In this document: positions 1 to 42,492 of the stretch, piece after piece
How the letters are laid out: each line of letters starts with the position of its first letter
Numbering within the stretch: position 1 is the stretch's first letter
Source: a virus
Reading direction: 5' to 3' (one strand)
Virus record (IMG/VR): IMGVR_UViG_3300043446_002040
Location: 1 to 42,492 of that record
Length of the DNA stretch: 42,492 nucleotides
The notes under the pieces: model-generated
What the model was told of the DNA's origin: nothing
The model's input: only the letters and a program-made list of their open reading frames with translations
Database searches by the model: none
Translations under genes and position numbers: made by a program

Positions 1-67
1 TGAACACATCTTGCGTGCATAGAGCTGAATCCAGCACCGCCTGCGCCGCAGGGCTCAGTTCAGCCAT
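1..67 (-). CDS. N-terminal part of coiled-coil hypothetical protein, cut by the window end
   Basis: The ATG at 67-65 follows a strong Shine-Dalgarno sequence (GGAGGGAACC) and opens a frame beginning MAELSPAAQAVLD that runs off the left edge. The same sequence recurs at the right edge, where the gene is complete (41954-42388). This is therefore the same gene seen twice because the circular sequence was cut inside it. It overlaps the stop of the upstream 94-residue gene by a few bases, which suggests translational coupling. See the 41954-42388 entry for the full description. Confidence 0.8.
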   Translation of the reverse strand, partial: MAELSPAAQAVLDSALCTQDVF

Positions 68-171
68 TGGTTCCCTCCAGCTCGGCGGCAATGGCGAGGA
101 GCTTGCGCCGAGTTGCAGCTCGTTGGTCTTGCTCAAACCCATCCGGTGTGATGGAACCAGTGCCGCCGGGT
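1..171. repeat. terminal redundancy, copy at the left end
   Basis: Bases 1-171 repeat at 42322-42492 with two mismatches (A90 versus G42411; C102 versus T42423). This is the overlap expected when a circular or terminally redundant genome is assembled as a line. The unit is then about 42,321 bp. The mismatches point to strain variants in the sample or sequencing error. Confidence 0.95.
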
Positions 172-18533: not shown

Positions 18534-19550
18534 TCAACATTCCATCAGCTGCTCCAGGTTGATAGCAGATCCATGCACATAGCGCTGCGTCACATTCAGC
18601 GACCCATGCCCTGCCCACTGGCAGATCGCAGGGGCAGACCACCCCTTCTGAGCCAGCCGAGTCAGGCAGGTGTGGCGCAGCGTGTGAACCACCCACTCGC
18701 GGCGCACGTCATCCGACAGGCGCAGTTTGTCACAGGCAGCGTGCTTTGACTCTGCATAGTGAGAGCGGAAGACCTTGTATGAAAGGCCGAACACCGTTGA
18801 ACCGCCGTGTGCTTCCATTGCCCGGAGGATTCCCTTCACAGGCTCCGGGATCGGCAATGAGCGAGGCTTGTTCCCCTTCGTCTTGACAAAGGTGATGCGA
18901 TTGCGTTGCAGATCAACCCGATCCCATGAAAGGCTGAGAGCTTCACTGACACGACATCCCATGTGCCACAGGAATAGCGTGAGCTGCATAGAGAGGCGAC
19001 GTTCTCTGCGTTCCATGTCATCCAGCAATTCAGCCAGCCATTCCTCCGGGAGCACAAGGCTGCGAGGCTCTGCCTCCTTGAGCAGCCGGGCCTCCGGGAA
19101 CAGGGGCATCGCGTCGATCAGCCCCAGTCGTTGAGCGCGCAGCAGCATCACCCGTAGGGCGCTCAGGTAGCGATTGATGGTGCCATTGCACAGCCCATCC
19201 GATCGGAAGCGCAGCAGCATGTCGTCGATCACTGCGGCTGTCACATTGGCGGGCCTAGTGAGCTGGCCTAGGGCCTTCACAAGGCGCTCCGCACGCATGG
19301 CCTGACTCTGATCCTTGCCCTGCCAGTCGATCTCCATGCAGGCCGTGAGCACAGCGGCCAGCGTGTCTCCGCTGTGCCGAGTCTCCCTGAGCCTGGCTTC
19401 CTGTTGACGTGCCTCGAACACGCCGACCTTGGCCTTCGCCTCCCAGGCCGTTGCCTCCTCCTCTGCCTGGAATGACCGGCTCACCCGGTCCCTGCCAGTG
19501 CCGACACTGGCAAACCAGCAACGGCGATCATTCCTGAATCGAACTGCCAT
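18534..19550 (-). CDS. int: tyrosine recombinase (phage integrase) (338 aa)
   Basis: Site-specific recombinase. Order: an N-terminal arm-binding-like part (FRNDRRCWFASVGTGRDRVSRSF), a SAM-like core-binding domain (about 60-155, NGTINRYLSALRVMLLRAQRLGLI), and the catalytic domain with Arg200 (GCRVSEAL), Lys near 223-225, His289 and Arg292 (HTLRHT), His315 (WAGHGSLNVT) and Tyr324 (QRYVHG). All catalytic residues are present, so it should be active. The gene is GC-richer than its neighbours. It overlaps the MarR-like gene by 23 bases, forming a two-gene operon. Integrases occur in some marine cyanopodoviruses. Confidence 0.95.
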   Translation of the reverse strand: MAVRFRNDRRCWFASVGTGRDRVSRSFQAEEEATAWEAKAKVGVFEARQQEARLRETRHSGDTLAAVLTACMEIDWQGKDQSQAMRAERLVKALGQLTRPANVTAAVIDDMLLRFRSDGLCNGTINRYLSALRVMLLRAQRLGLIDAMPLFPEARLLKEAEPRSLVLPEEWLAELLDDMERRERRLSMQLTLFLWHMGCRVSEALSLSWDRVDLQRNRITFVKTKGNKPRSLPIPEPVKGILRAMEAHGGSTVFGLSYKVFRSHYAESKHAACDKLRLSDDVRREWVVHTLRHTCLTRLAQKGWSAPAICQWAGHGSLNVTQRYVHGSAINLEQLMEC

Positions 19551-19845
19551 TAGTCAATGCCTCAGCAAGTGATACAAACTGTTCGCCTTTAGGTGTAAGA
19601 AACACCTGAAGGATTCTGTCATCGGATGGATTGCGCCGGGTTTCGATCAAGCCGTAACTTGATGACAACCCGTCGCGTCTACCACTACCACCTAGAACGT
19701 CAATGGCTCTAGAGATAGCAGCCAGTGTTAAGTTGGTTTCAATGGCAAGCTCGGTTTGAGTCAGCCCTGGCTTTAACTTAACAACAAGAAGAATCTCAAT
19801 CTGTGATGCCCTGATGGATGCGTTTAGGGATCTGAATAATCGCAT
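19528..19845 (-). CDS. MarR-like winged-helix regulator (105 aa)
   Basis: The order of elements fits a winged helix: helix (IRASQIEILLVVKLKPG), helix-turn-helix (LTQTELAIETNLTLAAISRAIDVLG), then the wing with the MarR-type pattern GLIETRRNPSDDRILQVFLTPKGEQFV. The C-terminal dimer helix is short. Met at 19845 is chosen because GAGGGA precedes it; the frame could extend nine codons to a TTG at 19872. It is cotranscribed with the integrase, so a role in controlling lysogeny or integrase level is an inference from context. Confidence 0.78.
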   Translation of the reverse strand: MRLFRSLNASIRASQIEILLVVKLKPGLTQTELAIETNLTLAAISRAIDVLGGSGRRDGLSSSYGLIETRRNPSDDRILQVFLTPKGEQFVSLAEALTNGSSIQE

Positions 19846-19900
19846 CAGATCCCTCAGTTTAGCGATATTCAAGATACAAGGTGATCAACACTGCCTTGTC

Positions 19901-23288: not shown

Positions 23289-23314
23289 TGATGCTTCATT
23301 GATTGAACAAACGC

Positions 23315-23344
23315 ATCATGCCCACACTGCTTGCAACCTGTCAA
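23315..23344 (-). promoter_or_regulatory. candidate promoter for the leftward early genes
   Basis: Minus strand TTGACA (23344-23339), 18 bases, CATGAT (23320-23315). The -35 flank TTGACAGGTTGCAA resembles that of the site at 15954 (TTGACAGCTTGCAA). The -10 is weak (4 of 6). It lies 27 bases before the first gene of the arm. Confidence 0.4.
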
Positions 23345-23408
23345 GCATCAAGCACTGGCATCGTCATCCTTTCTGTAGCACCACGAGCACTGGCACCAGC
23401 AGATCCAT

Positions 23409-23449
23409 TGCAACCACTGCCATCTATGCCAGTGAACATGGTGGTTGCA
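23409..23449. other. 9-bp perfect inverted repeat with 23-nt loop
   Basis: TGCAACCAC (23409-23417) pairs with GTGGTTGCA (23441-23449). It lies between the candidate leftward promoter and the tandem array. It could be a protein-binding site or an RNA hairpin if transcription starts further right. No U-run. Confidence 0.5.
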
Positions 23450-23517
23450 TTTCGCAATGAACAGGCAATCCTGCCCGCATCCCTGCAACCATCCATAGGC
23501 TCAACCGTTGAATAAGT

Positions 23518-23765
23518 AGGTTCTACATAGGTTCTACATAGGTTCTACATAGGTTCTACATAGGTTCTACATAGGTTCTATGTGGCTCTACATAGGTTCT
23601 ACATAGGTTCTACATAGGTTCTATGTGGCTCTACATAGGTTCTATGTGGCTCTACATAGGTTCTACATAGGTTCTACATAGGTTCTATGTGGCTCTACAT
23701 AGGTTCTACATAGGTTCTACATAGGTTCTATGTGGCTCTACATAGGTTCTACATAGGTTCAACAT
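23518..23765. repeat. tandem array of 11-bp and 21-bp units (iteron-like)
   Basis: Unit A is AGGTTCTACAT (11 bp). Unit B is 21 bp: AGGTTCTATGT followed by GGCTCTACAT. The order is A5-B-A2-B-B-A2-B-A2-B-A, then a last degenerate unit (AGGTTCAACAT). Units are exact copies. Each B contains the inverted repeat CTATGT/ACATAG with a 6-nt centre; A does not. Lengths of 11 and 21 bp are one and two helical turns, so all units face the same side of the helix. There are no spacers, so it is not a CRISPR. An origin-type protein-binding array is the best guess. Confidence 0.95.
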
Positions 23766-23925
23766 TCAACCATCCCTATCCCTATCCCCCCCTCTCAACA
23801 CTATCCCTTCCCACGCTCAACGTGGCCTTTCTCTTCTCCCCTCAACCACACACATCCTCACCACATCTCCCTACATCTCAACCCCTACACCTTCTCCTCC
23901 CCGACTTAACCCTCCCTCCTCAGCG
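23766..23925 (+). other. pyrimidine-rich, G-poor tract
   Basis: Directly after the array the + strand is almost free of G for about 150 bases and rich in C and T (runs such as CCCTATCCCTATCCCCCCCT). Strong strand asymmetry beside a repeat array can mark a DNA-unwinding element or a binding tract for single-stranded DNA protein. A hairpin CCTCAG/CTGAGG closes it near 23918-23940. No gene is supported on either strand. Confidence 0.7.
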
Positions 23926-24217
23926 CAGCTGCTCCTGAGGGATGGGTCGGCAGTGAGAATGTATGTAGAGGATGAACTGTTAATCCATTCCCCAATCCCT
24001 ATCCCAATCATCCCTCTCACATCAGGTTGCGCAACCACCCTGGGATGGTGCATCCGCTGACCTGCAGTGCCTGCCTGAGAGGGTGCTTCGCACCGTCAAG
24101 CAGGAAACAGTCTGCATAGTGCAGCGCATGGACCCCCGGAGGGGGGACAGGCGCATCTGTGTGTGTCAGGTGATGCCCTTGGGAATTAGGAATGGAACAG
24201 AGTGTAGCTACAGGAAG

Positions 24218-24303
24218 CCTACTGAAGCTAAGGGGTTGTTGAGTGCTAGATCGCTTGCTGGCGCAAGCTCAACTAGCTATACAACAAACTTAGCTACAGT
24301 AGG
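24218..24303. other. long bulged hairpin 1 (31 paired bases)
   Basis: An imperfect palindrome with five stacked stems: CCTACTG/CAGTAGG, AGCTAAG/CTTAGCT, TTGTTG/CAACAA, GCTAG/CTAGC and the apical GCTTGC/GCAAGC with loop TGGC. The stems are separated by 1-4-nt internal loops. The apical 25 bases (24249-24273) recur with one loop change in hairpin 2 (24375-24399). Because the structure works as DNA cruciform or as RNA from either strand, its form cannot be decided from sequence. No coding potential. Confidence 0.8.
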
Positions 24304-24339
24304 TTGATGTAGATAGAAGGTGGATTCTGTAACCAGTTG

Positions 24340-24442
24340 AACTGACGTACATGCAACCGTGTGATTCATGGGTGGATCGCTTGCTGACGCAAGCTCAACC
24401 ATCCCATGAGATTCATGGTTGATATGGACGTAGGATACAGTT
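24340..24442. other. long bulged hairpin 2 (about 31 paired bases)
   Basis: A second imperfect palindrome 36 bp after the first: AACTG/CAGTT, ACGT/ACGT, CAT/ATG, CAACC/GGTTG, CATGGG/CCCATG, GG/CC and the apical GCTTGC/GCAAGC with loop TGAC. Only the apical part is shared with hairpin 1; the lower stems differ in sequence but keep the architecture and the number of pairs. This argues that structure, not sequence, is conserved. Confidence 0.75.
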
Positions 24443-24537
24443 GAATGCGATGAATGTTTCGCAGTCTGGAGGTGTTGATCAAGGCAAAGGTGTCTGTAAC
24501 AGCCGGTTGCCTTTGGGTGAGCCTCCCCGTAGCCTTG

Positions 24538-24616
24538 CGTTCTCCACCTAGCCGGGCGAGCCCGGAGGCGGAGAACGAGGACTAGAGCCGGGGGTTCATC
24601 CCCGGCGTTCTCCGCC
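24538..24616 (+). promoter_or_regulatory. GC-rich element with mutually exclusive stems, possible attenuator
   Basis: CGTTCTCC occurs twice (24538-24545 and 24606-24613). The single GGAGAACG (24570-24577) can pair with either; with the downstream copy the pairing extends to 10-11 bp (GGCGGAGAAC with GTTCTCCGCC). Inner hairpins CCGGG/CCCGG (24552-24565) and GCCGGGG/CCCCGGC (24587-24606) fit the two states. It lies about 160 bases before the first + gene, where a leader RNA switch could act. No U-run follows. Confidence 0.6.
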
Positions 24617-24735
24617 GCAGGGATCATACGCATCCTAGAAAGGGAAGGAAATGTTAAGGAGCCAATGAGAGACTGGTGTTTGGTTGAACGCCGAAGGCGA
24701 CCTAGAGAATGCTGTAACAAACTGAAACACAGGAG

Positions 24736-25014: not shown

Positions 25015-25293
25015 ATGCAAAGCCTGGAGGAGATCCTTGAGGAAAGGGGATCGCAGTATGGGGACTTCATGGGTCACTCTGAGATCACCCAAGGGTTGAA
25101 GTCAGTGATCATTGGAAGCACTGGCTATGAAAGGCTACAGCTGGATCAAATGGAAGCACTCGATATGATCTTCCATAAGATTGGAAGGATCATCAATGGG
25201 AATCCTAATCATGTTGATAGCTGGCAGGATATAGCTGGTTACTCACAGCTGATTGTTAACCGTCTCCAGCAGAATGAGGAGGTTCCATTTTGA
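25015..25293 (+). CDS. DUF6378-like (MazG-like) phage protein (92 aa)
   Basis: The sequence LEEILEERGSQYGDFMGHSEITQGLK, LDQMEALDMIFHKIGRIINGNPNHVDSWQDIAGYSQLIVNRL matches the DUF6378 pattern seen in many phages. It resembles all-alpha nucleotide pyrophosphohydrolases in its EAL-D-H-K-RI..GD..H.DSW.DIAGY motif. A role in nucleotide pools fits the dCTP deaminase gene that it overlaps by four bases, but no catalytic activity is established. The start at 25015 is the first ATG after the promoter at 24957-24985. Confidence 0.82.
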   Translation: MQSLEEILEERGSQYGDFMGHSEITQGLKSVIIGSTGYERLQLDQMEALDMIFHKIGRIINGNPNHVDSWQDIAGYSQLIVNRLQQNEEVPF

Positions 25294-27481: not shown

Positions 27482-29200
27482 GTGACCGACATTCCTCTGC
27501 CGCAGTTCATCACGTTGCTCATGCGTGAGTTGAACATGGCAGAAACACCGACGCCAGTTCAGCTGCAGATCAGTGACTACCTGGAGAAGGGACCGAAACG
27601 CCGGGTGATTGCAGCGTTCCGTGGTTGCGGTAAGAGCACACTGTCTGCGATGTATCTGCTATGGAAGCTGTATCACAATGCGGACGAGAAGTGTCTGATT
27701 ATCTCAGCCTCGATGAGCCGATCAGAAGCCATGACGGCATGGATGTTGCAGACGATCGGCAGGGTGCCATGGTTGAAGCACATGCAACCTGATAGCCACG
27801 ATGGTAGATACAGCCGGATCAACTTCGATGTTGGAACCTGCCGCAACATTGAACAGAGTCCGTCAGTGCGAGCTGCGGGAATTACGGGACAGATCACTGG
27901 TAGCCGTGCAAGTACAATTCTGGTTGACGATGCAGAAACTCCCCAGACTTGCCTTACTCAAGTGCAGCGCGAGAAGTTGCGCAATTCGTTGAATGAACTG
28001 GAGGCAATTCTGAAGCCTGGTGATGAACCAGAGATTGTGTATCTTGGCACTCCACATAGCAGCACGGATAGTATCTACTTTGCGTTGCAGAGGGATCTGA
28101 ACTATGACATGCGAATGTGGCCAGCCAGGGTGCCAGCCGATCCGACTCCCTATAAGGGTGCATTGGCGCCGTTGATCGAGAAGCGTGTTGGCGCAGCCAA
28201 TGGCAGGCCCACTGATACCCGCTTCAGTGATGATGAGCTGAGGCAGCGTGAGCTGAGTATGTCACCGACTCAATGGAGACTTCAGTTCCTCCTCGACGCA
28301 ACGCTCTCTGACATTGAGCGGTATCCGTTGCGTTGTGGCGACTTGATGGTGATGACGATTGATGGCCACCTTCCAGAGATCGTCACCTATGAGAAGGCCA
28401 AGCAGCTCGCGCTCGATGACCTGCCCTGCGTCGGCATGGCTCACGATCCTCGGTTCTACCGGCCAGCTCAGGTGGAAGGCACCGTTCCGGTGGCAGAGGT
28501 GCCTACGGTGATGGCACTGGACCCCGCTGGCGGGGGCAGTGATGAGTTCGCTTGGGCGGTGGTCAAGGCATGGGCTGGCAACTACTACCTGATGGAGTCC
28601 GGTGGTCGCCTGGGGGGCGTTGGCGAGAGCTTGTGGGAGAAGCTGGCGATGATCGCCAAGCGTCATCATGTAAACGAGATACTGGTGGAGACGAACTTTG
28701 GTGGCCTGGAGGTTTACTCCCAGTTGCTAAAACCATTCCTGGTGAAAGCGCAGGCTGAGTGCAGAGTCGAGTCAATCAGAAGCAATCAGCGAAAGGAACT
28801 GCGCATCATTGACACGCTGGCTCCAGTGATGCAAACGCATCGGATGGTGGTCGATCGCCGCGTCATTGAGCAGGATGCTGACCTACTGAAACAGGCGAAT
28901 GATGAGCGGGGGGCAAGTTACTCGTTGTTCTATCAGCTTACCCGCCTCACTGCTGACCGGGGCAGCTTGTTCCACGATGACCGATTGGATGCCTGGGCCA
29001 TGGCCGTCCAGTGGTTCCAAGAGCAGGCAGCGCAGGATCAGCTTGTGATGCGTGACGCCAGGTTGAGCGAGATGCTCGATGCTGAGATTGCAGATTGGCG
29101 CGGCAGGGTTCTGATGACACCGGATCGCGCTGCCATGGGGATGAGCCTGGAGCAGGCCAGGATGGCTGATGTAGGGACAGGGGGGTGTAGTTGGTTGTAG
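27482..29200 (+). CDS. terL: terminase large subunit, T7 gp19-like (572 aa)
   Basis: DNA packaging motor and nuclease. ATPase: Walker A FRGCGKST (46-53), Walker B ILVDDAE (146-152), coupling motif YLGTPHS (188-194). Nuclease: ALDPAGGGSDEF with Asp347, LVETNFGG with Glu403, and HDDRLDAWA with Asp499/500. Length equals T7 gp19 (586 aa). The GTG start at 27482 directly follows the terminator T-run and has no Shine-Dalgarno sequence; ATG at 27521 (MRELNMAE) or 27536 (MAETPTP) may be the true start. The small subunit gene lies on the opposite strand at 30.3 kb. Confidence 0.95.
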   Translation: MTDIPLPQFITLLMRELNMAETPTPVQLQISDYLEKGPKRRVIAAFRGCGKSTLSAMYLLWKLYHNADEKCLIISASMSRSEAMTAWMLQTIGRVPWLKHMQPDSHDGRYSRINFDVGTCRNIEQSPSVRAAGITGQITGSRASTILVDDAETPQTCLTQVQREKLRNSLNELEAILKPGDEPEIVYLGTPHSSTDSIYFALQRDLNYDMRMWPARVPADPTPYKGALAPLIEKRVGAANGRPTDTRFSDDELRQRELSMSPTQWRLQFLLDATLSDIERYPLRCGDLMVMTIDGHLPEIVTYEKAKQLALDDLPCVGMAHDPRFYRPAQVEGTVPVAEVPTVMALDPAGGGSDEFAWAVVKAWAGNYYLMESGGRLGGVGESLWEKLAMIAKRHHVNEILVETNFGGLEVYSQLLKPFLVKAQAECRVESIRSNQRKELRIIDTLAPVMQTHRMVVDRRVIEQDADLLKQANDERGASYSLFYQLTRLTADRGSLFHDDRLDAWAMAVQWFQEQAAQDQLVMRDARLSEMLDAEIADWRGRVLMTPDRAAMGMSLEQARMADVGTGGCSWL

Positions 29201-29208
29201 CAATAGCG

Positions 29209-29991
29209 TTACTGCTTCAGTTGGGACCAGTGCTCGACAGGTTTGATCATCATTCTTGACGCATCTAGCATGTTCAGCATTCCCTGTCGCCTTGTTTCGT
29301 TCCATTCATAAAGCAGGTCGTTTCCCATCTTGCGCAGTTCGTAGTTCATCGTACCTGGCAGATCCCACCTTGCCAGCTCACTTCTGCCGCTGCTTTTTGC
29401 CTTGGCATCTAGGTAGCGAAAGAGCTGGCCCTTTATCTCAGAGGCCATCTTGTCACTTACAAGTTCGGATACGTCATGGTCAATCTTCGCGTTTCTCCCA
29501 CCCGGAAGACTGGCGTTTGCGCTAATCAACTCATTGCGGAGCTTTCTTACAAACGGATTCAGCGCATCATCAAACGCTTCGCGTGATGGAGCTGCCAGTC
29601 GGCTTCTGGGGTTTGTGTTGGCATTGTTGAACCGCTGCTTCAACTCTGCTTCAAGTGGGTTCCAGTTGAGGATTGCTTCCCTTGCCTTCACGTTTCTCTC
29701 AATCGTGAGCTTGTGCAGTTCCGGGTCAACATTCCATCGTGCTGCAGGTGATCTGCCCCGTGCGGGTTCATTGATCCTGTCTGGATTCCCCCAGACGGGA
29801 TTCCTGCGTTCACTGCGCGGAACGCTGTTGCTCATTGGCCTACCCGCCTGCCTGAGCATTCGTCCAGTAGGTAGAGGCTGCAAGCCAGCTTGCTCCCCCA
29901 GATCAACCTCCATCGCGGATGTGTCGATCGGAGCTTGAGGTTCCGGTTGCTGAGTGGGCGCCGGATCTTCCTGGTCAATGAGTCGCAGCAT
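29209..29991 (-). CDS. hypothetical protein in the reversed island (260 aa)
   Basis: The first 85 residues are a Pro/Gln/Arg-rich disordered region (DQEDPAPTQQPEPQAPIDTS). The rest is helical and charged (HKLTIERNVKAREAILNWNPLEAELKQRF; DALNPFVRKLRNELISANASLPGG; SELVSDKMASEIKGQLFRYLDAKAKS). No known domain. It is the last gene of the leftward island, ending 8 bp from the TerL stop (convergent). A packaging accessory or lysis role could be guessed from neighbours only. Confidence 0.65.
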   Translation of the reverse strand: MLRLIDQEDPAPTQQPEPQAPIDTSAMEVDLGEQAGLQPLPTGRMLRQAGRPMSNSVPRSERRNPVWGNPDRINEPARGRSPAARWNVDPELHKLTIERNVKAREAILNWNPLEAELKQRFNNANTNPRSRLAAPSREAFDDALNPFVRKLRNELISANASLPGGRNAKIDHDVSELVSDKMASEIKGQLFRYLDAKAKSSGRSELARWDLPGTMNYELRKMGNDLLYEWNETRRQGMLNMLDASRMMIKPVEHWSQLKQ

Positions 29992-29994
29992 TGA

Positions 29995-30276
29995 TTACTG
30001 TCCCGATGGATGATTGAACTGCACCATAAGAGCAAGAATCACCTCAAGCCACTTGTTCAGGTTGTTCTCTGCTCTTGCACGCAAGTCCGGGCAGACTTCC
30101 GTGAATGAGATTGTTTTATTCATTTTGTCCTTGTCGCTTAGTGCCTTGACTTCACCGTAAAGAGCCTTCTCGCAGAATACAAGGGCTTCTCGGTTTGCCC
30201 ATACACTATTTAGCAGTAGCACGCCAAGTAGCCCAAGCAGGATCATTGGCGCTTTAATCTGCGGAAGTTTCGTCAA
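29995..30276 (-). CDS. small membrane protein, possible holin (93 aa)
   Basis: One N-terminal transmembrane segment (APMILLGLLGVLLLNSVWANREALVF, residues 9-30) with positive charge before it, a charged middle (KALSDKDKMNKT), and a moderately hydrophobic C-terminal helix (WLEVILALMVQF). The size and topology fit a small holin, and T7 has its holin (gene 17.5) just before the small terminase gene. It overlaps the small terminase stop by four bases with a TTG start; Met at 30246 is an alternative. A spanin or other membrane role cannot be excluded. Confidence 0.55.
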   Translation of the reverse strand: MTKLPQIKAPMILLGLLGVLLLNSVWANREALVFCEKALYGEVKALSDKDKMNKTISFTEVCPDLRARAENNLNKWLEVILALMVQFNHPSGQ

Positions 30277-30545
30277 TCGGGTGTTAACTGCATGAGTTTC
30301 TCCAGTTCATCAGCGGTGGGCATGGCGGCTTTGATCCGTTGCAGGGGGACAGATGCCTCAACAGTGCTGGTGATGTTGTTGTCTTTCAGGAATCGCATGG
30401 CCTGGCCGAGCGCAGATGCGCGAACGATGGGATCTTCAGAGTGAAGTTGATTGAGCAATTCCTGGCCGACCATTCCATGAATTTGGGCGAGCAGGTCTTC
30501 CGAAGCGCGGGACATGCGAGTAGTCTGCGAAGAGCTTGACACCAT
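30273..30545 (-). CDS. terS: terminase small subunit, T7 gp18-like (90 aa)
   Basis: Recognises DNA for packaging. Length equals T7 gp18 (89 aa). The pattern SEDLLAQIHGMVGQELLNQLHSEDPIVRASALGQAMRFLKDNNITSTVEASVPLQRI matches small terminases of cyanopodoviruses (helical start, then A..L..A..FLKDNNI). It is the first gene of a leftward island while TerL is rightward, an unusual arrangement. The start is only 27 bp from the divergent internal virion gene. Confidence 0.75.
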   Translation of the reverse strand: MVSSSSQTTRMSRASEDLLAQIHGMVGQELLNQLHSEDPIVRASALGQAMRFLKDNNITSTVEASVPLQRIKAAMPTADELEKLMQLTPD

Positions 30546-41964: not shown

Positions 41965-42388
41965 GCTCCACCTCCTCCCGCAGCCAGGCAGCGGCAATTT
42001 CGAGAGCCGCTGGACGTGGAGATTCATACGATTCCAGCCACTCCGCCACAGCCAGGATCGCGGCGCGGGCATCACGCTCGCTGCCGCAATCCTGCGCCTG
42101 GCGCACCCGCTCCACCAGCCCACCGGCCGGGGCGACCATTTTCTTTGCGTCAGGAAAATGGTCGGCGGCAGCCTCCTCCAGCTTCACAATCCGAGACCAG
42201 TTGCTTTCGTGCTGGACTTTGAGTCGATCCAGCTTGTCGTAGATCTCCTGGATACAAGCTTTCTCCGTCTCGCGCTGGGCTTCCAGCTTCTGGATCCGCT
42301 GCTCGGCCAATGCCAAGCGGGTGAACACATCTTGCGTGCATAGAGCTGAATCCAGCACCGCCTGCGCCGCAGGGCTCAGTTCAGCCAT
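41954..42388 (-). CDS. coiled-coil hypothetical protein, paralogue of the gene at 316-819 (144 aa)
   Basis: Starts MAELSPAAQAVLDSALCTQD at 42388 after GGAGGGAACC. It contains LAEQRIQKLEAQRETEKACIQEIYDKLDRLKVQHESNWSRIVKLEEAAADHFPDAKKMVAPAGGLVERV, a probable coiled coil, and ends ARAAILAVAEWL...AAAWLREEVEREA. The central block is nearly identical to the gene at 316-819 (72 bp identical DNA), and the N-terminus matches the 94-residue gene, so the cassette has been built by duplication and shuffling. In the circular genome it directly follows the 94-residue gene. Function unknown. Confidence 0.78.
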   Translation of the reverse strand: MAELSPAAQAVLDSALCTQDVFTRLALAEQRIQKLEAQRETEKACIQEIYDKLDRLKVQHESNWSRIVKLEEAAADHFPDAKKMVAPAGGLVERVRQAQDCGSERDARAAILAVAEWLESYESPRPAALEIAAAWLREEVEREA

Positions 42389-42492
42389 TGGTTCCCTCCA
42401 GCTCGGCGGCGATGGCGAGGAGTTTGCGCCGAGTTGCAGCTCGTTGGTCTTGCTCAAACCCATCCGGTGTGATGGAACCAGTGCCGCCGGGT
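42322..42492. repeat. terminal redundancy, copy at the right end
   Basis: Second copy of bases 1-171, differing at 42411 and 42423. It falls inside the 94-residue and 144-residue genes and so is unlikely to be the natural packaged end of the phage, which remains unplaced. Confidence 0.95.

Follow-up and report, generated by a model that had tools for sequence, protein, structure and literature searches.

What does a tandem array of short repeats do when it lies, at close to helical spacing, in the spacer from which the two arms of a viral genome are read in opposite directions? The window, i.e. the whole stretch of DNA analysed, is a virus record of 42,492 nucleotides (IMGVR_UViG_3300043446_002040), and its profile matches (PHROG) indicate a T7-like genome. 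Our preferred reading, to which we give a probability of just under one half (0.48), is that the genome terminus (concatemer junction) lies in the spacer and that the array is a phased repeat tract for end processing or packaging.

The array and its genomic setting

Profile matches in the regulatory and replication part of the leftward arm comprise an antirestriction protein, a MarR-like regulator, an integrase, a single-subunit RNA polymerase, SSB, an endonuclease, a primase-helicase and an exonuclease; those in its structural part are portal, scaffold, capsid, tail tubes and endolysin. The rightward arm matches a dCTP deaminase, a methyltransferase, the terminase large subunit TerL (27482–29200, plus strand; PHROG_38, 1e-86) and a tail fibre, and large proteins occupy the place of the internal virion proteins. 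TerL is inverted relative to the T7 order. Among named phages, Krakvirus S39C11 (AP013549; TerL 72%, RNA polymerase 40%) is nearest. A block of ORFs on the minus strand (29209–30545), between TerL and the large genes after it, runs against the right arm and holds two unknown ORFs and a candidate terminase small subunit (30273–30545, minus strand; PHROG_891, 2.6e-13), which may bind the terminus region. A short ORF at 25015–25293 matches PHROG families, one of them annotated as phosphofructokinase.

Between the early, RNA polymerase and head genes on the left and the TerL, internal virion protein and fibre genes on the right lies a non-coding spacer of about 1.38 kb (23289–24664), flanked by the initial ORFs of the leftward (23288) and rightward (24665) arms and supported by the ORF list, PHROG matches and synteny in relatives. 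An Rfam search of the spacer gave just one sub-threshold chance match, and a nucleotide search of phage records with it gave short chance matches only. A prophage in a cellular genome was rejected as a source, the sole match being to a Planctomycetia MAG contig whose integrase is a distant relative (39%).

The array occupies positions 23517–23765, starting one base to the left of 23518, where the sequence-only reading had placed it. The call rests on exact parsing and TRF (scores 351–446). Exact parsing bore out the composition and order reported earlier: 12 exact copies of an 11-bp A unit (TAGGTTCTACA), one degenerate end unit A' (TAGGTTCAACA, 23754–23764) and five copies of a 21-bp B unit (TAGGTTCTATGTGGCTCTACA), arranged as A5-B-A2-B-B-A2-B-A2-B-A-A'. 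Chance is excluded as an explanation, since all 12 occurrences of the core GGTTCTACA in the window fall within the array. The B unit reads as two 11-bp units minus one base, with about three substitutions. It does carry the inverted repeat CTATGT/ACATAG, as the sequence-only reading had noted, although not as the only such element, the A-A junction being a near-palindrome too (CTA-CA-TAG). The accompanying claim that all sites face one side of the DNA holds for neighbouring units, which are in helical phase, but not for the array as a whole: at 10.5 bp per turn successive unit starts shift by about 190 degrees in total (roughly half a turn) over its length, and at 11.0 bp per turn the five 21-bp units cause an opposite drift.

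Few parts of the spacer are as AT-rich as the array, which has a GC content of 39%, compared with 55% for the genome. A coding function was rejected, as the unit length is not a multiple of three and both strands carry stop triplets. Directly adjoining the array, the minus strand of 23766–23788 holds a G-run stretch (GGGGGGGATAGGGATAGGG) with the potential to form a G-quadruplex, and relatives are likewise C-rich on the plus strand at the matching site.

A probable genome-end element in the spacer

The first and last 171 positions of the window (1–171 and 42322–42492) are identical but for two mismatches. Relatives are circular permutations of one gene order, several of them reading through the window's end junction, and because of this overlap of about 171 bp and these permuted relatives the assembly is a circle: a closed contig with population variation, though its record lists no end repeat. 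The window ends were rejected as genome ends on the same grounds and because the overlap lies inside ORF-bearing DNA. Contig ends found inside the spacer were also rejected as physical ends, since they fall in low-complexity or array DNA. P-SSP7 was assembled as a circle too, yet it has direct terminal repeats of 206 bp that were mapped experimentally (PMC3350473), and the circular closure and permuted relatives are compatible with a terminal repeat collapsed in the same way.

The part of the spacer right of the array contains a conserved block made up of a stem-loop, a CCCCC...GGGGG hairpin and an AATTAG motif at a fixed distance. Stem-loop I (GGGAT...ATCC, 24042–24055) shows compensatory changes in its pairs across relatives. 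Hairpin II (CCCCCGGAGGGGGG, 24133–24146), about 370 bp from the array, has no counterpart elsewhere in the window, and the motif GGAATTAG (24182–24189), also single-copy, follows at about 43 nt, a distance that is fixed in the clade. A single-copy CCCCC/GGGGG hairpin with a loop of at most four nucleotides, always in the spacer, was found in the window and in nine relatives, one of which is a near-identical sister. Genome G002 has a four-C version, and the hairpin is absent from G013 and from G011, whose contig has no spacer. Wherever the AATTAG motif was found in this context it is present once per genome, and a phage promoter was rejected as its function on that ground. In one relative (L114, G032) a second copy of CACAGGAATTAG lies about 50 nt past the conserved AATTAG motif.

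Hairpins of the same make are known from genome ends. Counterparts lie at nt 26–38 of T7 (CCCCCATAGGGGG) and nt 27–40 of P-SSP7, both inside the terminal repeat, and P-SSP7 has the hairpin only in the two copies of that repeat. P-RSP2 and P-SCSP1u each have one hairpin, near TerL, and P-RSP2 has ATTAG at a similar distance from it (53-nt span). Motifs of the type CCCC(C)(A/G)TAG occur about 25–35 nt from the record starts of T3, K1F, SP6 and phiKMV. P-SSP7 further resembles the window in a stem-loop lying further in than the hairpin, which is itself 26 nt from the end, and in the place of the element between terminase and early genes; it differs in having no clear adjoining repeat array, a terminase that is not inverted and a DNA polymerase gene.

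Because these counterparts sit 25–26 nt from the left ends of T7 and P-SSP7, inside the terminal repeat, the divergence point is probably the packaging terminus. Judged by position and resemblance together, we consider it very likely that the spacer is where the circularly assembled genome has its terminus. From the T7 and P-SSP7 hairpin-to-end distances and the conserved block we predict a direct terminal repeat at approximately 23945–24171; the hairpin is known here from assembled contigs, so its distance to the real end is a prediction. The motif GGGTCGG (23944–23950), which most relatives carry some 200 nt to the left of the hairpin, is a candidate for the inner boundary of the repeat. No contig was found to end at the predicted boundary.

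The sequence-only reading had taken the divergence of the arms for a constant property of the genome. Self-closure of the contig, permuted relatives and a hairpin of the T7 and P-SSP7 genome-end type in the spacer all speak against this for the virion. Should the hairpin region be the terminus, each arm would point from one end of a linear genome towards its middle, and divergence would be confined to concatemers or circles.

Period, sequence and copy number in relatives

Periodicity was tested in the 600 nt to the left of the hairpin. Over twelve spacers the 11-bp lag gave a mean z of 2.3, the highest of 37 lags, and in eight mutually dissimilar spacers it again came out as the highest lag, with 0 of 1000 shuffles reaching the observed value. 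Coding controls and the sequence right of the hairpin gave no group signal at this lag. Part of the signal is low complexity, because lag 4 also exceeds the null. In the same test the SRL of T7 showed a period of 13 (z 8.1–8.4) and SP6 a period of 12 (z 4.9).

The units themselves are not shared. Those visible in relatives all differ (AACTCCTAAGT, ATGCATCCCCT, CATCAACACCT, CAACGACAACT and GCACTTGTGGT), and an exact-pattern scan of IMG/VR recovered the array sequence in the sister contig only and in no other lineage. Judging from these comparisons, the relatives as a group appear to keep the 11-bp spacing but not the sequence. The expectation of a conserved architecture with varying copy number was borne out for period and copy number; the sequence is not shared. 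More distant relatives have arrays of 23 bp (L086, 5.4 copies), 29 bp (L090, 5.3 copies) and 20 bp (L089, 1.9 copies) in the matching spacer. No clear array was detected in the spacers of P-SSP7, AP013549 and K1F, and the array is not universal in T7-like phages.

Sister contig and window align mismatch-free for 25,624 bp, with a single gap that consists of added units in the array; these copy numbers come from assemblies, and the repeat is probably longer than a read. Isolates of MPP-C, a group of T7-like cyanophages already known to lack a DNA polymerase (PMC9860041), have an 11-bp array about 55–85 nt from the same hairpin, with three copies in P-SCSP1u and two in 1b, 1d and 1k. P-SCSP1u and its siblings thus share with the window the missing polymerase, the inverted terminase, the hairpin and a nearby 11-bp tandem repeat of variable copy number. 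Their arrays differ in having two to three copies and another sequence, and that of P-SCSP1u is found on the side of the terminase instead of that of the early genes.

Tandem duplication that is selfish or neutral, arising by slippage or by end repair during concatemer resolution and tolerated in non-coding DNA, fits the lineage-specific sequences and the copy-number difference between otherwise identical genomes; a fresh, functionless 11-bp duplication would look similar. It accounts poorly for the recurrence of one 11-bp period across unrelated sequences, and twelve perfect copies with identical B units interspersed imply recent homogenization and not only drift. We regard this explanation as distinctly unlikely.

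The array might instead be a set of operators through which a regulator, for example the MarR-like protein encoded at 19528–19872, controls early promoters of one or both arms. It is followed, about 170 bp downstream in the leftward direction, by a candidate early promoter of sigma70-like type (TTGACA-18-CATGAT, 23315–23344, minus strand), which on its own does not exceed shuffle expectation; by eye, a TTGACA-like box is found at the matching place in several relatives. A MarR-type gene adjoins the integrase in the window's clade, in P-SSP7 and in S-SRP02. This gene and the integrase are conserved, yet the array sequences are completely different, and early promoters of the T7 type are usually read at once by the host polymerase. 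Such transcriptional control is, in our judgement, very unlikely.

A possible replication origin or end-processing tract

The window and ten relatives contain no DNA polymerase of family A or B, which makes the Krakvirus-related clade a second polymerase-less T7-like group beside MPP-C. The clade keeps a T7-type primase-helicase, SSB and exonuclease. It had been proposed that the array compensates for the missing polymerase. This idea fails because the presence of an array does not track polymerase loss: T7 and SP6 encode a polymerase and have comparable arrays, and AP013549 lacks both a polymerase and a detectable array.

The broader idea of a protein-bound origin or regulatory array fared better, in that a real array at the scale of the helical pitch lies in the control region and is plausibly protein-bound; an origin or regulatory role is possible. 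As an iteron-like origin, the array would be bound by an initiator or host factor that opens nearby DNA for a replisome driven by the host polymerase. The retention of primase-helicase and SSB in a genome that lacks a phage DNA polymerase agrees with this, as does the AT-richness of the array, and in most relatives the GC skew turns from C-rich to G-rich across the spacer as at an origin, a flip equally expected from divergent transcription. Like plasmid and phage iteron origins, the array consists of tandem repeats of protein-site size at helical spacing; unlike them, it comes with no initiator gene, DnaA boxes or unwinding element that we could find. The window-clade spacer has no DnaA-box cluster and no box at one mismatch or fewer, and no initiator candidate is among the profile matches, many ORFs having no assignment. 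With arrays at the same place in polymerase-encoding T7 and SP6, and none in polymerase-less AP013549, we consider an origin unlikely.

The T7 genome end offers a close comparison for the preferred reading, in which the array serves the terminus. In T7, short repeats (SRL and SRR) lie beside the direct terminal repeat. To our knowledge these repeats have been known for decades and have no settled role. The array lies between the terminus element and the early promoter, as do the T7 SRL and SP6 arrays. Its position fits as regards hairpin and early arm, with about 180 bp between it and the boundary of the predicted terminal repeat. It consists, like a T7-type SRL, of short direct repeats near one helical turn. 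Differences from T7 are the unit (11 and 21 bp, with no sequence in common with the CCTAAAG that T7 has at 13 bp), the inversion of the terminase arm, such that the arms diverge on the circular map, and the presence of an array on one side only, whereas T7 has both SRL and SRR: right of the hairpin neither a TRF array within the spacer nor a group signal at lag 11 was found.

We infer the cut position, the bound protein and the role in processing or packaging from these comparisons. In a T7-like, Krakvirus-related phage that assembles as a circle, the spacer would be the concatemer junction, and the array would be a fast-evolving tract next to the direct terminal repeat, on the side of the early genes. 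Numerous copies of a DNA-binding protein would most likely occupy it next to one another, and the terminase small subunit, the MarR-type regulator and a host architectural protein are candidates. The bound array may then help the junction to be recognized, held or processed into ends, and subsequently packaged. Granted the location of the terminus, such a role is somewhat more probable than even.

A wider generalization, which we think rather unlikely to hold, is that terminus-adjacent arrays of T7-like phages form a sequence-free module of rapid turnover and conserved pitch. Spacing of about one helical turn would be selected, and the bound sequence would be replaced lineage by lineage in concert with a packaging or replication protein, in phages that, having lost their polymerase, need to draw host enzymes to the genome ends.

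Many independent versions of the array within one clade, equal in period and different in sequence, amount to a natural experiment on what such an array must keep. In virion DNA the seemingly divergent arms would be convergent. For uncultured T7-like phages whose genomes assemble as circles, the terminus element provides a simple marker with which to predict the ends.
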